Shown here piece after piece: positions 44,900 through 64,000 of a stretch of 64,000 nt of DNA. A model generated the notes under the pieces. That model had not been told where the DNA came from and ran no database searches. It saw nothing but the letters and a program-made list of their open reading frames with translations. This DNA is from Lachnospiraceae bacterium 3-1 (lineage in GTDB: Bacteria > Bacillota > Clostridia > Lachnospirales > Lachnospiraceae): NCBI GenBank assembly GCA_000403255.2, contig KE159593.1:67969-131968 (forward strand). The letters run 5' to 3'. Positions within the stretch are counted from its first letter, which is position 1; each line of letters opens with the position of its first letter. A program made the translations under genes and the position numbers.

Positions 44900-47119
44900 A
44901 TGGTACAGAACAAGAAAAAAGTATCCCTGTGGTTTATCGTACTGGGGGCAGTCCTTTGTGCCTATGCAGGGTATCTCCTGAACGGCGCATGGGAGCCGGG
45001 AATGGAGATGAATGCCTTTCTGGAGTCCTTCAACCGTGTGTGCGCCGAACCATTTGCAAATTATTATAACCAGACAACCATGAAAGCGGTAGTGATAGCC
45101 TTAATCGTCTATGCTACCGCCCTTTTAATGTATATCACAAGCCAGCGGAACTTCATGCCGGGGAAGGAATTTGGAACGGCAAGGTTTGAATCACCCAAAA
45201 TGGCAAACAAGATACTTGCGGACAAGGACGAAAATTTCAACCGCATTTTGAGCCAGAACGTGAAGATGTCGCTGAATTTCCGGCGGCTGAAACTCAACGG
45301 GAACATTCTGATATGCGGCGGTTCCGGCGCAGGAAAGACCTTTTATGAGGTAAAGCCGAACCTGATGCAGATGCCGCATAACTGTTCCTTTATCTGTACC
45401 GATCCCAAAGGGGAAATCCTCAGAAGCTGCGGGGAGATGTTAAGGAACAACGGATACAGCGTAAAGGTCATAAACCTGCTGGAAATGGAAAAGTCGGACT
45501 GCTACAATCCCTTTTCCTATATCCGTGAGGAGACGGACGTGGTAAAGCTGATCACGAACCTTATCAGCAATACCACGCCAAAGGGCGCAACTCCCTCCGA
45601 TCCCTTCTGGGAAAAGGCGGAAGGGCTGTTCCTACAGGCAATCTTCTATTATGTGTGGCTGGAAGAGCCGCCTGCAAGGAGGAACTTTGAGACAGTCTTA
45701 CAGCTTTTGGGGGAGGCGGAAGTGACGGAACAGAACAAGCCTTCCAGACTGGACGTGCGCATGAAATTCCTTGAGGAAACTTCAAAGCTCGGCTCGGCGC
45801 ACCCTGCGGTGAAACAGTACAACAAATGTATGCGTGGTGCGGGCGATACTGTCCGTTCCATCATCATCAGCGCAAACTCCCGGCTTGCTTTTTTGGAAAA
45901 CAAGCAGGTACTCCGGCTGCTGTCAAGGGACGACTTGGACCTTGCGGAACTTGGCATTGGCGTGAACGGGGACGGGGAGACAAAAACAGCGCTGTTCTGC
46001 GTCATTCCGGATTCCGACAAGTCCTACAACTTCATTATCGGAATGCTTTATACACAGATTTTTCAGGAGCTTTACTATCAGGCAGACTTCAACTGCGGCG
46101 GGCGGCTCCCGATCCATGTGACCTTCATGCTTGATGAATTTGCGAATGTCGCACTGCCGGATGACTACTGTTCCCTTCTGTCAACCATGCGTTCAAGGGA
46201 GATTTCCAGCATCATCATTATCCAGAATTTCGCCCAGTTAAAGGCGCTTTTCAAGGACACTTGGGAAACCATTCCGGGCAACTGCGACACGTTTATCTAT
46301 CTTGGCGGCAATGAGCAGAGTACGCACAAGTATGTTTCGGAACTGCTCGGCAAAGGCACGATTGACAAGAAATCAAGCGGTGAGACAAAGGGCAGGCAGG
46401 GAAGCTCCTCACGCAATTACGACGTGCTTGGCAGGGAGCTTTTCACAGCGGACGAAGTGCGCAAGCTGGACAACAAGAAGTGCATTATTTTTATCCGTGG
46501 CTTTGATCCGATTATGGACAGCAAGTTTATCCCATTCGGACACCCGGCATTTGACCAGACCGCTGACGGGAAAGGGAAGCCGTATGTCCATGTCCCAAAC
46601 AGCGGAGGTGGAGGACAGGCGCTGCCGTTCCAACTGCTGACACCGAAGGCTCTTTCCTATTATGAGGAGCTGAAAAAGAAGGGTGAAAATGTCTATATTG
46701 ACAAAATCGACTACAAGGACTTTGAACTTCTCACTGATGCCGGAATGCAGAAACGCTTCATCAGCATGGAGGAACAGGAGCAGAAGGAACAGCTTAACAG
46801 GGAACAGGACAATGAACTCATGTATGCACAGGAGGACGTGCCGGAACCGGAGACAGCCGGAACGAAACCAAAGCAGGCGGCAAAAGAGCCTGTGCCGGAA
46901 CCGGAGGCGGCAGGGCGCAGGCTGGAGGGCGAAGATACCATTATGAACCGTATGGCGCAGTGGAAATATTCCAAAGAGCAGAAGAACGAGCTGCATAAAA
47001 TGATTGCGCTTGGTATGCCCACAAAGACCATACTGGCGGTATTCTACCCGGAAACAGACGTCATAAAGATGCGTGAGATCAGAAAGACATTCCAGACTGT
47101 GCGGCATTCAGAAAACTAG
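44900..47119 (+). CDS. virD4: VirD4/TraG-type coupling protein (T4CP)
   Basis: This 739-residue protein has two N-terminal transmembrane helices (about residues 8-27 and 58-78), a Walker A motif C-G-G-S-G-A-G-K-T-F near residue 140, and a Walker B motif V-T-F-M-L-D-E-F-A-N near residue 410. The ATPase hexamer sits at the membrane and feeds relaxase-bound DNA into the secretion channel. A C-terminal acidic/Pro linker (about residues 620-690) and an extra helical domain follow. It is the PcfC equivalent and sits after the PcfB-like gene by 6 bp. Confidence 0.95.
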   Translation: MVQNKKKVSLWFIVLGAVLCAYAGYLLNGAWEPGMEMNAFLESFNRVCAEPFANYYNQTTMKAVVIALIVYATALLMYITSQRNFMPGKEFGTARFESPKMANKILADKDENFNRILSQNVKMSLNFRRLKLNGNILICGGSGAGKTFYEVKPNLMQMPHNCSFICTDPKGEILRSCGEMLRNNGYSVKVINLLEMEKSDCYNPFSYIREETDVVKLITNLISNTTPKGATPSDPFWEKAEGLFLQAIFYYVWLEEPPARRNFETVLQLLGEAEVTEQNKPSRLDVRMKFLEETSKLGSAHPAVKQYNKCMRGAGDTVRSIIISANSRLAFLENKQVLRLLSRDDLDLAELGIGVNGDGETKTALFCVIPDSDKSYNFIIGMLYTQIFQELYYQADFNCGGRLPIHVTFMLDEFANVALPDDYCSLLSTMRSREISSIIIIQNFAQLKALFKDTWETIPGNCDTFIYLGGNEQSTHKYVSELLGKGTIDKKSSGETKGRQGSSSRNYDVLGRELFTADEVRKLDNKKCIIFIRGFDPIMDSKFIPFGHPAFDQTADGKGKPYVHVPNSGGGGQALPFQLLTPKALSYYEELKKKGENVYIDKIDYKDFELLTDAGMQKRFISMEEQEQKEQLNREQDNELMYAQEDVPEPETAGTKPKQAAKEPVPEPEAAGRRLEGEDTIMNRMAQWKYSKEQKNELHKMIALGMPTKTILAVFYPETDVIKMREIRKTFQTVRHSEN

Positions 47120-50485: not shown

Positions 50486-50526
50486 TTATGGCAATGCTGA
50501 AAACAGCATGGAAAAGGAGGTCAGAT

Positions 50527-52905
50527 TTGGGCATATTTGCAGACGGATTTAAGGAGCTGAAAAAAGCAAGTGAACCGCTTTATAAAACTCCGAAATCCAT
50601 ACAACAGACGATTGAGATCATGAAGGTGGCGGAGAACGGCATTTTTGAGGTGGCAAGGAACCGCTTCTCAAAGTGTTACCGTTTTCAGGACATCAATTAC
50701 ACCACTACCAACGAAACGGAGCAGATTGACATCTTTGAGCGTTACTGCAGGTTTTTAAATTCGCTGGACGTGAATTTCAAGATCACAATCAACAATAAAA
50801 ACAAGGACATGGAGCAGGTCAGGGACTATGTGTTCTTACAGAAGAAGAATGACGGCTATAATGGGTTCCGAAAGATCTACAACGACATCATGGAGCAGAA
50901 GATACATGAAGGCAGGCAGGGAATCGATCAGGAGCGTTACCTTACCATTACCATTGAGCGCAAGAATTTTGAGGAGGCAAAGGCGCAGTTTGCAACCATT
51001 GAGGCGTCGGTGCATAAGGCGTTCGGGGAGCTTGGCGCAGAGATTGTCCCGCTTTCCGGCAATGAGCGCATCAAGGTGCTGTATGACTACTACCATCTTG
51101 GGGATGAGGGCAGCTTTGACTTTGACATCAGGGAGGCAAGGAAGGTCGGTGCGGACTTCCGCAATGACCTGTGCAACGGCATGATACAGTTTTACCCGGA
51201 CTATTTCAAGGACGAAAAGAAATTCTGCCGTGCATTGTTCATCAAGAAATACCCGTCCAGCCTTTCAGACCGTTTCCTGAATGAGATCACAAGCCTTCCG
51301 GTACATTCCATTACAAGCATTGATGTTGTCCCTATCCCAAAGGACATGACAACAAAGATTTTGCAGAAGAAGTACCTCGGCATTGAGTCGGACATCATCA
51401 GGCAGCAGCGTGTGAGGAACAAAAACAACGATTTTTCATCGGAAATCTCGTATAACAAGAGGATTGAGAAGAAAGAGATTGAGGAAATCATGGACGACGT
51501 AAGGGAAAATGACCAGTGCCTTTATTATGTGTCCGTGACGGTTATCCTTATGGCGGACACGAAAGAGGAGCTTGACAGCATGACGGAAACGGTGGAAACC
51601 ATAGGCAAGCGCAACTCCGTCACGATAGAGGAACACTATCTGAAGCAGAGGGAATCCTTAAATACTGCGCTGCCGATTGGGGTCAGGCAGGTGGAAACCA
51701 TGCGCACCATGCTGACACAGAGCCTTGCGGTGCTGATGCCTTTCAACGTGCAGGAACTGAACGACAAACAGGGGTGTTATTACGGTATCAATCAGGTATC
51801 GAAAAACATCAATATCGGGAACCGCAAAAAGCTGATTAACGGCAACGGCTTTGTGTTCGGCGTTCCCGGTTCGGGCAAGTCGTTTTTCTGTAAAATGGAA
51901 ATGGGCAACGTGTTCCTCTCCGGCAATGATGAGATTATCGTCATTGACCCGATGAATGAATACTTTGACATTGCCCAGACTTACGGCGGGACAGTGGTAA
52001 ATATGTCAACCTACACGGATAACTATGTCAATCCGCTTGACATGGACGTATGGAGTCTTGACTTGAACGACAGCAAGGGCATGATAAGGGAAAAAGGCGA
52101 ATTTATGCTCGGACTGTGTGAACAGTGCATGGGGGAAAGCCTTAATTCAAGGCAGAAGTCCATCATTGACCGCTGTGTGCGCAAGCTCTACATTGAGATT
52201 GCAAGGAACAGGGAGAAATATGTGCCGATCATGTCCGATTTTTATGAGATACTGATGAACCAGCCGGAGGACGAGGCAAGGGATATAGCGCTGTCACTGG
52301 AACTGTTTGTCAACGGTTCGCTGAATATATTCAACCACCAGACAAATGTTGATGTGGATAACCGCTTTACGGTGTACGGAATCCGTGATTTGGGTACGGA
52401 ACTTTCGCCTATCACCATGCTTGTAATGATGGAAAGCATACAGAACCGCATCATTGCAAACGGCAAGAGGGGCATTGCGACATGGCTCTATATTGACGAG
52501 TTCCACGTACTGTTAAATTCGGAGTATTCCGCAAAGTATTTACAGCAGCTTTGGAAGAAAGTGAGGAAACAGGGCGGCTTGTGTACCGGGATCACGCAGA
52601 ACATCGTTGACCTGCTGCAAAATTATACGGCTACTACCATGCTTGCCAACTCGGAGTTTGTGGCACTCTTGAAGCAGGCGAACACGGACAGTTCACGCAT
52701 GGCAGAGGTTATCGGCGTGTCGGAGGCGCAGTTGCGCTTTGTAACCAACACGTCAAGCGGCATGGGGCTTATGAAGTGCGGAAACGTGGTAATCCCTTTT
52801 GACAATACCATTGAGAAAGGGACGGACCTCTATAATTTATACAACACAAATATCCATGAGAAAATCGCAATGGAGAAGAAAAAAGAGTGTGCAGGACAGA
52901 AATAA
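50527..52905 (+). CDS. virB4: VirB4-type ATPase of conjugative secretion system
   Basis: I chose TTG 50527, which follows AAAGGAGGT by 7 nt (the product then starts G-I-F-A-D-G-F-K-E-L); ATG 50488 would place the ribosome binding site inside the gene. The 792-residue protein has Walker A G-V-P-G-S-G-K-S-F-F near residue 447 and Walker B W-L-Y-I-D-E-F-H-V-L near residue 655, followed by V-R-K-Q-G-G and T-Q-N-I-V-D-L. VirB4 powers channel assembly and transfer, working with VirD4. Confidence 0.95.
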   Translation: MGIFADGFKELKKASEPLYKTPKSIQQTIEIMKVAENGIFEVARNRFSKCYRFQDINYTTTNETEQIDIFERYCRFLNSLDVNFKITINNKNKDMEQVRDYVFLQKKNDGYNGFRKIYNDIMEQKIHEGRQGIDQERYLTITIERKNFEEAKAQFATIEASVHKAFGELGAEIVPLSGNERIKVLYDYYHLGDEGSFDFDIREARKVGADFRNDLCNGMIQFYPDYFKDEKKFCRALFIKKYPSSLSDRFLNEITSLPVHSITSIDVVPIPKDMTTKILQKKYLGIESDIIRQQRVRNKNNDFSSEISYNKRIEKKEIEEIMDDVRENDQCLYYVSVTVILMADTKEELDSMTETVETIGKRNSVTIEEHYLKQRESLNTALPIGVRQVETMRTMLTQSLAVLMPFNVQELNDKQGCYYGINQVSKNINIGNRKKLINGNGFVFGVPGSGKSFFCKMEMGNVFLSGNDEIIVIDPMNEYFDIAQTYGGTVVNMSTYTDNYVNPLDMDVWSLDLNDSKGMIREKGEFMLGLCEQCMGESLNSRQKSIIDRCVRKLYIEIARNREKYVPIMSDFYEILMNQPEDEARDIALSLELFVNGSLNIFNHQTNVDVDNRFTVYGIRDLGTELSPITMLVMMESIQNRIIANGKRGIATWLYIDEFHVLLNSEYSAKYLQQLWKKVRKQGGLCTGITQNIVDLLQNYTATTMLANSEFVALLKQANTDSSRMAEVIGVSEAQLRFVTNTSSGMGLMKCGNVVIPFDNTIEKGTDLYNLYNTNIHEKIAMEKKKECAGQK

Positions 52906-58159: not shown

Positions 58160-58723
58160 TTGGGAAAGAAATATAACATCATTTATGCCGATCCACCGTG
58201 GCAGTACAAGGTGTATTCCAAAAAGGGGGAAGGCAGGAGCGCAGAGAACCATTACCACACCATGAACATTGAGGATATAAGGTCATTGCCTGTTGGAAAT
58301 ATAGCCGATGACGACTGTATCCTTTTTTTGTGGATCACGTTCCCCTGCCTGCTGGAAGGCATCTCTGTCATGCAGGACTGGGGTTTTACCTATAAGACCT
58401 GCGGGTTCAACTGGGTAAAACGGAATAAGAAGGCTGACACATTCTTTATGGGGCTTGGATTCTGGACACGTTCCAATTCGGAAATCTGTATTCTTGGAAC
58501 AAGGGGCAGACCAAAAAGGGTATCGAAAGCTGTCCCGCAGGTGTGTGACGCACGGATCATGGAACACAGCAAAAAGCCGGACGTGGTACGGGAGCGCATT
58601 GTGGAACTGTGCGGGGATCTGCCACGGATAGAACTGTTCGCAAGGCAGAGATACGAAGGATGGGACTGTCTTGGGGACGAGATAGACGGCAGGGACATCC
58701 GGGAAGCAATATTGGAGGTATGA
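58160..58723 (+). CDS. MT-A70-family N6-adenine methyltransferase
   Basis: The start is TTG 58160 (G-K-K-Y-N-I-I-Y-A-D-P-P-W-Q-Y-K). The 187-residue enzyme carries the catalytic D-P-P-W motif at about residues 10-13 and later N-S-E-I-C-I-L-G-T-R-G and R-I-E-L-F-A-R-Q-R-Y-E-G-W, all typical of MT-A70 methylases. It would methylate adenine, adding to the protection by the TSPPY enzyme. Phage and ICE copies usually act on DNA. It ends 3 bp before the giant gene. Confidence 0.9.
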   Translation: MGKKYNIIYADPPWQYKVYSKKGEGRSAENHYHTMNIEDIRSLPVGNIADDDCILFLWITFPCLLEGISVMQDWGFTYKTCGFNWVKRNKKADTFFMGLGFWTRSNSEICILGTRGRPKRVSKAVPQVCDARIMEHSKKPDVVRERIVELCGDLPRIELFARQRYEGWDCLGDEIDGRDIREAILEV

Positions 58724-58726
58724 TGA

Positions 58727-61700
58727 ATGAGCGCAGACACGAAAACATCAAAGCTGTATGATGCCGCCATAGACGAAGTGACCGCAAGCGGGCAGGCATG
58801 GAAAAGCATATGCAGGCTTACAGGGCAGCTCTACCGCTATGAGTTTGACAATATCCTCATGGTCTACAAGCAAAGACCGAGGGCAACGCTGATTGCGGAT
58901 TTCGACACATGGAAAATGGTAGGGCGGTATGTAAGGCGTGGCAGCAAGGGTATCGCAATTTTCCCGTCAAGAGCCTTAAAACCGGATATGCGGTATGTTT
59001 TCGACATATCCGATACCGGGGGCAGGGAAAGCAGGCTGACATGGGAGCTTGACCGGAACACCGTGAAAGCATATGCGGCATGGTTAAGGGAAAAAGAGGG
59101 CGCTGCCCTGCCCGGAGGGAAAGAATCTGATAAATCTTTCCTAAAAGACTTTACAGAAAGACAGATCGGAGTCATAATGGACTCAGAATTTGGTGAACGC
59201 ATTACCGAGTTCGTGAATCTGGCTGGAAACAAACAGATAACAGAGAATGGCAGAGCGCAAGAGATTACGGCAGTGGAAGCGTTAAAAAGAAGCGTCATGT
59301 ATGCGGTATTTACAAGATGCGGCTTTGACCTTCCCACTGAAAAACAGGATTTCTCCTTCATTACCGCATTTACAACAGAGGAGGAAGTCTACCGTTTAGG
59401 ATCTCTGCTCAGCGATATATCCTGTGGCGTGCTGAGAGGCATTGCAAAAGATTTAAAGCAGATGGAAGAAAGGAGTATTGCAAATGGCAGAGATAACAAT
59501 GACGTATCACGAGGGAACGGACGGGATGCTGTACCCGGACATCACGACACCGGAGGAAACGGTGAGCATGACAAACTTAGGGAAGTTCGCAGTGAGGGCG
59601 ATGGAGTACCTGAAAGAGAACCACAACAGCAGATACCGGACGCTGCGGAGATTCGGGAAACTGGCAGAGAAGATGCAGGAAGTGGAGGACGAAGCGAACC
59701 GGATGATGGACGAGCTGGAGGGCAGCTACTTAAAGAACAACCCGCCGAAGGACCAAAACTCGACAATGGAGATGTGGCAGCTACGGCAGCAGGCGAGGAT
59801 GCAGGCAGAGGAAATCGTGATGAACGAAGTAGTGATGAAGTTCCATTAGGGGACAGCGGACAACAGACAGAGGAAAATGAACAGCAGAATATAAGGAAAG
59901 CAGAACTTGACCGGGAGATTGAGCAGGAACTGAATGAGATCAATTCTTTGGGGAGTTCGGAAACGCAGAAAGGAAGCTATGAACAGGCTTCCTTTTTGAT
60001 TGCGGCAAACGGGGATATAGAGGTTCCCAAAGAATATTCCTACCAGAAACCGGAACAGGCGCTTACCGTGCCGCATGAGTATGTGAAACAGGTGCTTATG
60101 AGGGGCGGCGTGTTTTCGGGCAGTAAAAAACGCATTTATGCAATGTTTCAGGATATTTCCGATCCGGGGGAGCGTGTGAAGGCAGTCCGTAAGGAATACG
60201 GACAGGGCGGTGCAGGCTGGCCCCTTGAGGGGGACGGGCTGCACGGATATGACACATTCCATGCAAAAGGACTCCGTTTCCAGTGGCGTGAGGGCGGGAC
60301 AGAAATAGAAGGCTATATGAACTGGAAAGCCGTGGAGCGTGAACTGGGTGCGCTGATCATGACGGGGGAATATTATACGCCTCCGAAAGCATTTGATCCC
60401 GACAAAATATCGGCGGCAGTATGGCAGGAGCCTATGGATGAGTTTTTCCAGAAAAGTTTCTGGAGTCCGGTCCCAAACATGCTGTTATATGAAGTATTTA
60501 CAAAAGAACTGCCCATGAGCGATAAAGCGCAGTTCATCGAAAGGGTACTCTGCCGGAATCCGTATGCAGCCAGCACAGAGAATAACCTTGAGAATGAATA
60601 CGGCAGATGCAATATTGAACAGAACAACGAGGGGATTTCCATTGAATATTTTGATGGGGAAGGCACGAAGTGGAAAACGGAGCTTGACTGGTGGGACTGT
60701 GCGGCTTATGTGGAAAGCATGATAGCTGACGGGGCATACCAGACACATGAGCCTTATGACAAAATCGGGGAAATCATGGAGGAACACCCTGCCGCCACAT
60801 GGATAAAAATTTTAAAAGAGGATACGGACAGGTATCTCTCGGAGGATGCGGGGCAGCACCAGCAGAACCGCCTTGAGAACCTGCACACAATCCTTGAAGC
60901 CAAAGGCATACGGGAAAAGATTGAGCTGTCATGGGATGATGCTTATGATGAAGTCATAGCCAGCGACGGGGAAAACGTGTGGCACGGCAGGCAGTTTTAC
61001 GACTATCTGTATAATGAAGTGCTTGCGTCTGACAAAATCCGCAGGGACGGCAGTATCCCATATAACGTGCAGCAGCAGTTTGAACATGACAGATTTTCAA
61101 GCCATAACCCGGACAAGACCAATTTTATCCACCGGAAAACCTTTATCACGCTGGAGCTTACCGCAGATGAATGGGAAAAGCAGGAAGAAAGCCTCTGGCT
61201 GGAACCGTTGAAGGGATATTTCAATGAGGAAATCCAGTATATTTCCGTAAAGACGCTGATTTATGACATTTTTACCACAAACTTAAACATGGAAAGCAAG
61301 GCGGGGTTCCTTGCAAGCGTGTACGGGGAGCAGCGGGAAGGCTTCTTCATGTCGGAGTACACGGACAATTCCTTTGGCAAGTGCAAAATCAGCAGGGATA
61401 AGGACGGCATTGAAATCTCCTATCCACGGGCAGACGGAACAAAAGGGGAAAAGCGTGTGGATTACCGCTACTGCGCTGACCTGATCCTGCACATGATAGA
61501 GGAAAATGATTACCTGACGGAAGGAATCTTTGAGCGCTTCAGGGAAGCGCCGGGGGCATTTGCCGCAATGCCGTGGTTCATGGAAATCTACCATGAATAC
61601 AAGGAACGTATGCTGCAGGAGCCGGACTTTGCGGCGGTCAGCATTGACGGGCAGGAGGAAGAACGGCAGGAAGGGCAGGAGACGGAGGCGGCAGCGGAAG

Positions 61701-64000
61701 AAATACCGGAAACACGGCAGACGGCGGAAAACGGACAGGAAGAAATACCGGGAACATGGCAGGCGGTGGAAAACGGACAGGAAGAAATACCGGAAGCATG
61801 GCAGACGGCAGAAAGCGGACAGGAAGAAACAGCAGAAACACAGCAGGAAGAAACAGCAGAAGTACAGCCGGGGCAGGAAGATATACAGGAAACAGCAGAG
61901 CGTGTGGAGGGGGAAGTAATAAACCCTGACGGGAGCGTGGCAAAGCCCGCTGCGGGCAGTCTGTTCCCCGAAGCGCTGCGGCAGGTGGAGGAAATGGACG
62001 GCGACCTGCGTGATGCGCTGGAAACCTACCTGACAAAATGTTCCGCAGTCGTGCCATACCAGCCGTTTTTGCAGATGGTGGCAGAAAGCAGCCTGCCAAA
62101 AGAGGACAAGCTGAATTTCTTAAACCGTACCATAAACCATCTGGAAGATAAGGAACAGACAAAGGCATACCACAACAACGCTTACGGTCTTGTGGAGTAT
62201 ATCCAGAACAGGGATGCCTTTATGGTGGACTTAAAGAGCCGGGACGGGGAGCGGGAGAGATTTTCTGCAACCTATGAACAGCTTTATTCCATTATGGAAT
62301 ATCTGATAAAAGCGCAGATGTTTACCGGGGAGATACGGATGTCGGCATACCTGCGAGATTTTGCAAAGCTGCCGTATGAAAAGATGTCTGCTTTGGAAAA
62401 GCAGTTTGATGACAAACTCACCAGCCTGCGGAACAGGCAGCGGAAAGGGAACTTCCACTTTGAGGAGGCTGAACTGCCAAAGGGCGGACCGAAAACAAGA
62501 TACCAGTGGAACGTGGAGGCAATCCGGCTGTTGAAGCAGATCGAACATGAGGACAGGACAGCCACACCGGAAGAACAGAAGGTGCTTGCAAGGTATGTGG
62601 GATGGGGCGGTATCGCACAGGCTTTTGACGAAAGGAATAATGACTGGCAGAAAGAATATGCGGAACTGAAAGAGCTTCTTTCCACGTCGGAATATGAGGA
62701 CGCAAGGGAGACAGTCAACACGGCATTTTACACTTCCCCCGTCATCACGCAGGCAGTTTATAACGCACTGGATAAATTCGGTTTCCGTAAAGGGACTATT
62801 TTAGAGCCGGCGCTCGGCGTCGGTCATTTTTTCGGGACATTACCGGAAACCATGCAGGACAGCAGGCTTTACGGCGTGGAAAAGGACGACATCAGCGGGC
62901 GGATCGCAAAGCTGCTCTACCCCAAAGCACAGATAAAGGTAAGGGGATTTGAGGAAACGCAGTACCCTGACAACTTTTTCGATGTTGCGGTGGGCAACGT
63001 GCCGTTTGGCGATTACAAGCTCTATGACGCAAAGTACGCAAAGCACAACTTCCGTATCCATGATTATTTTTTTGCGAAAGCGCTGGATAAGGTCAGACCG
63101 GGCGGCATTGTGGCATTTATTACAAGCAAGGGGACGCTTGACAAGGCGAATCCTTCCGTAAGGAAGTACCTTGCGGAACGGGCGGAGCTGCTCGGCGCAA
63201 TCCGCCTCCCCAATACAGCCTTTAAGGACAGTGCGGGAACCGATGTCACAAGCGACATCATATTTCTGCAAAAGAGGGAGCGCAAGATCGTGACGGAGCC
63301 GGACTGGGTGCATCTTGGCAGGACGGAGGACGGCATTGCGGTCAATTCCTATTTTGCGGGGCACCCGGAGATGATGCTTGGAACAATGGAGTACGATACA
63401 CGCATGTTCGGCAACGGCAGCAAATACACAAGCTGCATCAACCATGACGAGAATTTTGACTTAAAATCCGCACTGGAAACAGCAGTAGGGCAGCTTTCCG
63501 GCAGGATCACCGATGTTGCGGAGCTTGCGGCGGAGGAGGAAAACACGGAGGACATCATCGAGGCTGATCCCGACGTGAAGAATTACACCTATACCTTTGT
63601 GGACGGAAAACTCTACTACCGTGAAAATTCCGTCATGTACCGCAAGGAAGTGTCGGCAACGGCGGAGGAACGCATAAAGGGCATGGACGAAATCCGCACA
63701 ATCACAAGACAGCTAATCTTCATACAGACGGAAGGGTGCAGCAGCGAGGAACTGGCTGCACAGCAGAAATTACTAAATGACAGGTACGATGCCTATGTGA
63801 AAAAATACGGACCGCTGACCGGGAGGGGGAGCCAGCAGGCGTTCCGTGACGATGCGGATTACCCGCTTTTATGTTCCCTTGAGGTCGTGGACGAGGACGG
63901 AAAGGTGGAAAAGGCGGATATGTTCTACAAACAGACGATCCGTGCGAAGAATCAGGTGGAGCGTGTGGAAACGGCGGTGGAGGCGCTGAATGTGTCCGTC
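58727..64000 (+). CDS. Giant ArdC-like / N6-methylase polyvalent protein (3' end outside window)
   Basis: The frame runs without a stop from ATG 58727 to the right edge (1758 codons). The N-terminus (W-K-S-I-C-R-L-T-G-Q-L-Y-R-Y-E-F, then R-R-G-S-K-G-I-A-I-F) matches the ArdC antirestriction domain, which binds single-stranded DNA. A Gly/Asp/Arg-rich linker (about residues 250-400) is followed by several LPD-like domains, a 14-residue tandem repeat, and an N6-methylase-like fold (Y-T-S-P-V-I-T near residue 1340, motif I E-P-A-L-G-V-G-H-F-F, and N-V-P-F-G in place of N-P-P-F). Relatives continue into a superfamily 2 helicase; that part would lie beyond the window. It likely protects and processes incoming DNA. 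Confidence 0.88.
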   Translation, partial: MSADTKTSKLYDAAIDEVTASGQAWKSICRLTGQLYRYEFDNILMVYKQRPRATLIADFDTWKMVGRYVRRGSKGIAIFPSRALKPDMRYVFDISDTGGRESRLTWELDRNTVKAYAAWLREKEGAALPGGKESDKSFLKDFTERQIGVIMDSEFGERITEFVNLAGNKQITENGRAQEITAVEALKRSVMYAVFTRCGFDLPTEKQDFSFITAFTTEEEVYRLGSLLSDISCGVLRGIAKDLKQMEERSIANGRDNNDVSRGNGRDAVPGHHDTGGNGEHDKLREVRSEGDGVPEREPQQQIPDAAEIRETGREDAGSGGRSEPDDGRAGGQLLKEQPAEGPKLDNGDVAATAAGEDAGRGNRDERSSDEVPLGDSGQQTEENEQQNIRKAELDREIEQELNEINSLGSSETQKGSYEQASFLIAANGDIEVPKEYSYQKPEQALTVPHEYVKQVLMRGGVFSGSKKRIYAMFQDISDPGERVKAVRKEYGQGGAGWPLEGDGLHGYDTFHAKGLRFQWREGGTEIEGYMNWKAVERELGALIMTGEYYTPPKAFDPDKISAAVWQEPMDEFFQKSFWSPVPNMLLYEVFTKELPMSDKAQFIERVLCRNPYAASTENNLENEYGRCNIEQNNEGISIEYFDGEGTKWKTELDWWDCAAYVESMIADGAYQTHEPYDKIGEIMEEHPAATWIKILKEDTDRYLSEDAGQHQQNRLENLHTILEAKGIREKIELSWDDAYDEVIASDGENVWHGRQFYDYLYNEVLASDKIRRDGSIPYNVQQQFEHDRFSSHNPDKTNFIHRKTFITLELTADEWEKQEESLWLEPLKGYFNEEIQYISVKTLIYDIFTTNLNMESKAGFLASVYGEQREGFFMSEYTDNSFGKCKISRDKDGIEISYPRADGTKGEKRVDYRYCADLILHMIEENDYLTEGIFERFREAPGAFAAMPWFMEIYHEYKERMLQEPDFAAVSIDGQEEERQEGQETEAAAEEIPETRQTAENGQEEIPGTWQAVENGQEEIPEAWQTAESGQEETAETQQEETAEVQPGQEDIQETAERVEGEVINPDGSVAKPAAGSLFPEALRQVEEMDGDLRDALETYLTKCSAVVPYQPFLQMVAESSLPKEDKLNFLNRTINHLEDKEQTKAYHNNAYGLVEYIQNRDAFMVDLKSRDGERERFSATYEQLYSIMEYLIKAQMFTGEIRMSAYLRDFAKLPYEKMSALEKQFDDKLTSLRNRQRKGNFHFEEAELPKGGPKTRYQWNVEAIRLLKQIEHEDRTATPEEQKVLARYVGWGGIAQAFDERNNDWQKEYAELKELLSTSEYEDARETVNTAFYTSPVITQAVYNALDKFGFRKGTILEPALGVGHFFGTLPETMQDSRLYGVEKDDISGRIAKLLYPKAQIKVRGFEETQYPDNFFDVAVGNVPFGDYKLYDAKYAKHNFRIHDYFFAKALDKVRPGGIVAFITSKGTLDKANPSVRKYLAERAELLGAIRLPNTAFKDSAGTDVTSDIIFLQKRERKIVTEPDWVHLGRTEDGIAVNSYFAGHPEMMLGTMEYDTRMFGNGSKYTSCINHDENFDLKSALETAVGQLSGRITDVAELAAEEENTEDIIEADPDVKNYTYTFVDGKLYYRENSVMYRKEVSATAEERIKGMDEIRTITRQLIFIQTEGCSSEELAAQQKLLNDRYDAYVKKYGPLTGRGSQQAFRDDADYPLLCSLEVVDEDGKVEKADMFYKQTIRAKNQVERVETAVEALNVSV
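59484..59849 (+). CDS. TnpV-like protein nested in another frame of the giant gene
   Basis: ATG 59484 stands 8 nt after AAAGGAG (59469-59475) and encodes 121 residues in frame +1 relative to the surrounding gene. The sequence has the TnpV pattern: M-T-Y-H-E-G-T-D-G-M-L-Y-P-D, then L-G-K-F-A-V-R-A-M-E-Y-L-K-E-N, then helical R-R-F-G-K-L-A-E-K-M, and Q-A-E-E-I-V-M-N-E-V-V at the end. TnpV proteins occur in Tn4451/Tn1549-type elements; their role is uncertain. Over the same bases the host gene encodes only a Gly/Asp/Arg-rich linker, so the nested gene seems to be the constrained one. Confidence 0.78.
   Translation: MAEITMTYHEGTDGMLYPDITTPEETVSMTNLGKFAVRAMEYLKENHNSRYRTLRRFGKLAEKMQEVEDEANRMMDELEGSYLKNNPPKDQNSTMEMWQLRQQARMQAEEIVMNEVVMKFH
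61697..61860 (+). repeat. 42-bp tandem repeat in the giant gene
   Basis: Three nearly identical 42-bp units begin at 61697, 61739 and 61781, encoding E-E-I-P-x-x-x-Q-x-x-E-x-G-Q (14 residues). They are followed by decayed units (E-E-T-A-E-T-Q-Q). The unit length keeps the frame, so copy-number change would alter only linker length. Confidence 0.85.

Follow-up and report, generated by a model that had tools for sequence, protein, structure and literature searches.

A tnpV-like gene nested in the linker of a giant polyvalent gene recurs across Bacillota mobile elements

Small genes with their own start signal that lie inside a larger gene on the same strand are known from bacteria and phages, comS in srfAB and Rz1 in Rz being examples. 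To our knowledge, long fully nested same-strand genes of bacteria have mostly been reported as isolated or young cases. Two other described systems are close to the locus presented here: TnpV of Tn4451 and of mobilisable elements (PF14198), and the polyvalent proteins of conjugative elements and phages (PMC5512222).

The locus lies in the window, the whole 64,000-nt stretch of DNA that was analysed. Like comS and Rz1, its inner gene is small, has its own start and sits wholly inside a larger gene on the same strand; here, however, a linker acts as the carrier, the inner product falls into a recognised family, and the arrangement recurs down to about 19% host identity. Most of the long same-strand overlaps counted in PMC2542354 are phase-1; the present overlap has the same phase, but the overlaps described there join neighbouring genes, whereas here the overlap is complete. 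With TnpV of Tn4451 and the mobilisable elements, the inner product shares its family and its linkage to mobile elements. Stand-alone tnpV genes have stops in their shadow frame (32 examined), whereas the window gene is wholly contained in another gene. The outer protein resembles the polyvalent proteins in being giant and multidomain, in joining a methylase to an SNF2-type helicase, in having an N-terminal domain and in belonging to a conjugative element (PMC5512222); the nested gene is extra here, and the main text consulted mentions neither TnpV nor "overlap". A literature search for TnpV together with an overlapping gene returned nothing, and broader searches showed no description of the nest among the matches listed.

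From comparison of sequences, we consider it very probable that the locus represents a real, old and fully nested gene pair of ICEs and related Bacillota plasmids that specifies two proteins, whose translation, co-expression and role we infer. A nest that is old, recurrent and easily recognised lends itself as a natural test case of how overlapping codes are tolerated, and it would account for a linker of low complexity in a large family of conjugation proteins.

The nested gene and its host in the window

The host gene (58727..64000, forward strand) continues beyond the window end, and its full-length ORF in the genome (stretch L024) encodes 2894 aa. It matches PHROG 10089 ("DarB-like antirestriction") with 1523 bits, and Eco57I, ResIII, SNF2 (SNF2-rel_dom) and Helicase_C all score above their Pfam cut-offs. 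We classify its predicted product as a DarB-like antirestriction/N6-methylase/SNF2-helicase polyvalent protein with the methylase and the SNF2-type helicase in one polypeptide. The conserved N-terminal domain (58727..59459, forward strand) is ArdC-N-like below the Pfam cut-off only: ArdcN (PF08401) reaches 14.9 bits in the window host (cut-off 22.6), and among seven other host N-domains one scored 17.1 bits and six gave no match. "ArdC" is thus a weak lead for this domain rather than a membership.

Within the host frame, an ORF of 121 codons plus stop (59484..59849, forward strand) begins with ATG at 59484; its final sense codon extends to 59846 and its stop occupies 59847-59849. The offset from the host start (59484 - 58727 = 757) places it in frame +1 of the host, where it overlaps host codons 253-375. 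A Shine-Dalgarno sequence, GAAAGGAG (59468..59475, forward strand), precedes the ATG by a spacer of 8 nt (59476-59483); it reads GAA AGG (Glu-Arg) in the host frame and is kept in relatives. The predicted 121-aa product matches Pfam TnpV (PF14198) with 86.3 bits (cut-off 27, E 1.8e-24, profile positions 5-111 of 111), and on this match we assign it to the TnpV family. NCBIfam and PADLOC searches gave no match for the nested TnpV. Two promoter-like sites that might serve an internal promoter were found, against 1.3 expected. The overlapping host-frame linker (59483..59851, forward strand; host codons 253-375) is stop-free and hydrophilic, with near-neutral amino acids (G 15%; E, R and D about 10% each; S 9%).

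Much of this had been anticipated by a sequence-only reading of the window, which described a 121-codon ORF with a Shine-Dalgarno sequence inside a longer ORF in another frame, a TnpV-like product and a low-complexity linker in the host frame. Re-reading the coordinates and frame, the Pfam search and the G/E/R/D/S-rich composition all agree with it. Its start at 59469 is the first base of its Shine-Dalgarno motif AAAGGAG and needs correcting to the ATG at 59484, while its 8-nt spacing is accurate. Of its label "ArdC/methylase" for the host, the methylase half stands above the cut-off and the ArdC half falls below it.

Just upstream of the host lies an MT-A70 type methyltransferase gene (58160..58723, forward strand; Pfam 103.6 bits). 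Since genes for a VirB4/TraG-type conjugation ATPase (50488..52905, forward strand; P-loop_TraG, 55 bits) and a VirD4-type coupling protein (44900..47119, forward strand; T4SS-DNA_transf, 189.4 bits) are also found upstream in the window, the nested gene appears to sit in a conjugative element. The same genome holds 22 TnpV matches, some of them broken. Three are nested (the window gene, one on C9 and one at C25:60950), and the remaining ones examined are stand-alone genes or fragments. An identical nested protein is encoded in the record of Eubacterium sp. 14-2 (L001).

Recurrence of the nest across Bacillota

Host loci were sampled with the host N-domain (244 aa) alone, so TnpV did not choose the loci. 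At genus level 29 genomes were searched, at family level 397 and at class level 391 (a few genomes recur), with matches in 20, 126 and 96 of them. From part of the matches listed, with short partial matches mostly left out, we assembled 167 host loci: 57 of 58 genus and family returns (L044 was dropped), 29 from the class, 80 further listed matches and one in L092. TnpV was located in them with a TnpV HMM built in this analysis.

In 146 of the 167 host loci examined, the window locus included, TnpV lies in frame +1 and wholly within an open host frame. These loci span 117 genomes, 89 genera and 33 families, and TnpV was nested in another frame in none of the 167. The remaining 21 comprise 16 loci without a TnpV match (some of them contig-end cuts or short genes), two with a +1 TnpV and a host-frame stop (over TnpV in L109, upstream of it in L153) and three with a +2 TnpV beside a host frame that has already stopped (L137, L138 and L150). 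A small mobile-element gene nested in a giant gene thus recurs across distantly related mobile elements of Bacillota, where the sequence-only reading had supposed an arrangement possibly conserved across related ICEs.

Additional samples were searched from the TnpV side or in other collections. Across the phylum, 299 genomes searched by alignment yielded 30 TnpV loci, 17 of them in an open host-type frame of at least 384 codons, scored on frame openness; all 17 (two of which were already in hand) share the same frame, and the other 13 have stops there. Among viral contigs, six of eight checked loci (of nine) are nested in the same frame and two are not; L243, which belongs to the six, matches a contig from the same genome as the window. 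A scan of the viral contigs with the window protein as sole query found no relative. Phage records gave five unannotated matches.

Matching plasmid records came from Enterococcus faecalis, Listeria and Virgibacillus. Nine records matched, five under a CDS named "SNF2-related protein", three without annotation and one as a stand-alone TnpV. The three Bacilli plasmids examined all carry the nest; in each, the host frame is open (2049-2156 aa) and TnpV reads in +1. The PLSDB tables of these three plasmids, incomplete according to PLSDB, contain the giant CDS and no nested CDS; the annotated records examined, namely these three incomplete tables, therefore omit the inner gene. This suggests that annotation rules against full overlap hide the gene in many mobile elements. 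When the nested TnpV of L171 served as query in another search of plasmids, 34 records matched, many of them annotated as TnpV protein.

Un-nested genes and the age of the pair

Four full-length hosts (L115, L168, L177 and L192) lack a nested TnpV; they have other linkers, and their +1 frame has stops throughout. The nest is therefore not indispensable for the host. Stops in the nested frame under an open host frame, or constraint in the host frame only, had been named in advance as signs against the nested gene; both occurred only in such nest-less hosts, a minority. In L115, L111, L177 and L192 the linker reads QLSLF, QLSIF, QLTLF or QISLF, motifs that we take to resemble the sliding-clamp binding motif.

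Upstream of five nest-less hosts, a complete tnpV on the same strand as the host was found in three cases, with 62.8-91.6 bits. The gap between it and the opening of the host frame is about 1.4 kb in genome G772 (L290:2213-2584), about 1.0 kb in G529 (L291, where both lie on the reverse strand) and 84 nt in G797 (L293:3907-4320). In G529 the contig ends within the host gene, and a nested copy is possible there. No upstream tnpV was found in G498 (L292) and G185 (L294), nor any TnpV in the stretches searched on either side of L168 and L192; among eight stretches around or behind nest-less hosts, only L288 held a TnpV-like ORF. It seems that tnpV and the host gene tend to remain neighbours even when un-nested, and that association rather than nesting is what matters.

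We take this tendency to remain side by side as the strongest sign that TnpV acts together with the giant protein. The most likely role of TnpV, at somewhat better than even odds, would be that of a small helical protein with an accessory part in the mobility or transfer of the element, in the same process as the giant protein. At some loci of the window's own genome, stand-alone TnpV relatives lie near coupling-protein or mob-type genes. A structural model built from 16 sequences only has two strands and four helices (pLDDT 83.4, pTM 0.63). Searched with Foldseek against the PDB, this 16-sequence model, with which a fold may be missed, gave 56 matches at E <= 10 and none at E <= 0.001; a profile search of PDB sequences with TnpV returned two unrelated matches (best E 0.032). 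TnpV of Tn4451 has been postulated to be Xis-like (PMC3158075). The model searches found no support for an Xis-like fold, in what a 16-sequence model makes a weak test.

An un-nested TnpV that seemed coupled behind its host in L083 was dropped as a candidate: host homology resumes about 4.85 kb further on, and this TnpV belongs to an inserted element. At L083:959-9996, a related methylase/helicase gene is split by an insertion with the stand-alone tnpV at its head, and host homology stops near codon 2572. In L218, host homology ends at codon 2573 beside the tnpV of that locus, apparently a splitting insertion as in L083. Both resemble the tnpV-bearing elements that insert into snf2 genes of Streptococcus suis ICEs, as reported in PMC9815147.

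Across 77 representatives, the distances of the host N-domain and of TnpV correlate with r 0.846 (best of 500 permutations, 0.219), over identities that range from 91% to 19% for the host N-domain and from 85% to 13% for TnpV. The pair has therefore mostly travelled together. In the host tree, six representatives labelled as lacking a nested TnpV are scattered and require five changes; the labels of L111 (cut by a contig end) and L155 (a fragment) are unsure, and L111, L177 and L192 sit on long branches.

A birth of the TnpV family by overprinting in the host linker, with later escape into the stand-alone genes of mobilisable transposons, would agree with the breadth of the nested rows, which cover most of the diversity of the TnpV tree, and with one open fork of 44 rows that takes in 27 of the 31 stand-alone ones. 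That tree, however, is unrooted and weak (7 of 78 inner branches starred), has stand-alone rows among nested ones and is compatible with a single nested clade (AU test with nested rows as one clade, p 0.166, four long-branched rows left out). Codon usage is neutral: TnpV is closer to the host's usage in 39 of 75 cases, which favours neither frame as the older. Furthermore, three deep- or long-branched host types carry tnpV upstream, and an origin from two genes in that order fits at least equally well. With tnpV upstream in three of five nest-less hosts, birth by overprinting becomes less likely, and we regard it as improbable. The word "overprinted", which the sequence-only reading had used, holds for the full nesting; the newcomer status that it implies for the inner gene is backed by neither the codon usage nor the AU test. 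A broader scenario, in which the pair predates many Bacillota mobile-element lineages with the linker as carrier, and TnpV was overprinted, escaped and now in some cases inserts into giant genes, is similarly doubtful.

Reading and selection in two frames

The start signal of the nested gene is conserved. Where a +1 TnpV has its full N-terminus, ATG stands at the nested start in 130 of 131 loci. A Shine-Dalgarno match of at least 5 nt precedes 115 of 130 nested starts versus 36 of 127 control starts (equal numbers of control starts were drawn, and in both sets the best Shine-Dalgarno was chosen, ATG being slightly favoured). Most often the signal takes the form GAAAGGAG-N8-ATG. At the Shine-Dalgarno, the host codon is Arg in 100 of 119 distinct loci (AGG in 96, AGA in 4), and 19 have no Arg; elsewhere in the same hosts, AGG makes up 16.6% of 5827 Arg codons.

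Of 148 loci with a +1 TnpV, 147 have no host-frame stop over it. When random synonymous codons were drawn for 118 distinct genes (17 further genes were skipped for unset starts or Ns), 7.3 host-frame stops were expected on average, with a mean chance of 0.0026 for an open frame; 117 of the 118 have none, and L109 has one. The third frame over TnpV has a mean of 13.1 stops. For the window TnpV, the host frame stayed open at a frequency of 0.0001 (20,000 draws, host codon usage) and, at TnpV's own codon usage, of 0.195; the latter usage may itself have been shaped by the overlap. As a control, 47 loci gave 40 full-length rows, of which 32 are stand-alone TnpV genes (one of them a near-duplicate); each has at least one stop in the equivalent frame, 6.6 on average. 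This control is partly circular, as "alone" meant outside any same-strand ORF of at least 250 aa. A chance ORF is rejected by the 7.3 stops expected under synonymous codons against 117 of 118 genes free of them.

Diversity at positions 1/2/3 of the host codons, taken over 12 close relatives, is 0.045/0.051/0.152 upstream of the nest, 0.112/0.060/0.031 in the overlap and 0.135/0.102/0.281 downstream. The most variable position within the overlap is the third codon position of TnpV. Change rates in the two frames (host first) are dNN 0.029, dNS 0.244, dSN 0.034 and dSS 0.349, the last from only 1.3 SS sites. For TnpV, dN/dS is 0.119 (bootstrap 95% 0.06-0.20), compared with 0.85 for the host linker (0.42-1.89), both from 11 sequences (L014 was dropped for a gap) by a simple count with no multiple-hit correction or tree. 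TnpV is thus under purifying selection and the host linker is near neutral; in this pattern the linker, not TnpV, is the passenger. The earlier proposal that the linker is shaped by the second gene fits these two-frame rates (0.12 against 0.85) and a linker that is kept open.

Synonymous identity in the host frame, measured in 20-codon bins, follows the nest. In 15 hosts it is 0.83-0.89 within the nest, 0.73 in two edge bins and 0.25-0.66 elsewhere; in 11 other hosts it is 0.77-0.92 within versus 0.25-0.69 outside, where some bins are sparse; and in the close set it is 0.95-0.99 within versus 0.66-0.96 outside.

In the reading that we prefer, the stretch would encode a giant polyvalent protein composed of the N-terminal domain, the linker, a DNA methylase and an SNF2-type helicase, and translation of TnpV, in frame +1, would start within the linker from a Shine-Dalgarno and ATG of its own. 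The selected protein would be the one in the TnpV frame, while the host frame would mainly have to stay open and hydrophilic; needing no more than this, a flexible linker could bear the cost of the overlap. The +1 phase suits such an arrangement: host position 2 coincides with TnpV position 1 and host position 3 with TnpV position 2. From the genetic code together with the measured composition, the shadow frame would contain few hydrophobic residues because codon position 1 is poor in T. Nesting would couple the output of TnpV to that of the giant protein.

The locus might instead consist of three cistrons (an N-domain gene, tnpV and a methylase/helicase gene), with the host frame over TnpV an untranslated by-product. 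Near-neutral linker residues are what this would predict, and at a few loci (L109, L137 and L138) the host frame does stop in or just before TnpV. These exceptions, however, resemble interrupted genes or remnants; 147 of the 148 +1 loci keep an open host frame over TnpV, against about seven stops predicted, and the host-only codons on both sides are in one frame. We consider three cistrons very unlikely.

Even less probable is that TnpV, rather than having its own start, is made by frameshifting from the host N-domain and forms the C-terminal part of the product. Before the ATG, a median of 60 nt is free of stops in the TnpV frame, and slippage is possible at some loci, but an in-frame stop lies within 15 nt before the ATG in 5 of 119 distinct loci (3 nt before it in four), and the spaced Shine-Dalgarno and ATG (130 of 131) would be superfluous.

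That an RNA or DNA element underlies the synonymous constraint, with the TnpV ORF incidental, would suit the raised synonymous identity over the 250-300 nt that precede the nest (in the close set, and mildly in the mid set) but is least credible of all, given a product that matches a curated protein family at 86 bits, variability that tracks the TnpV codon positions and a TnpV dN/dS of 0.12.

Alongside the preferred reading, in which the linker carries a translated tnpV gene, an element upstream of the nest could exist in addition to that gene. In the close set, about 200 nt upstream of the nest already show a synonymous identity of 0.93-0.96. At 59207-59484 in the window, host-frame synonymous diversity drops over the 250-300 nt that lead up to the nest, a change that is clear in the close set and weaker in the mid set; this dip could reflect an RNA or regulatory element, or local recombination.
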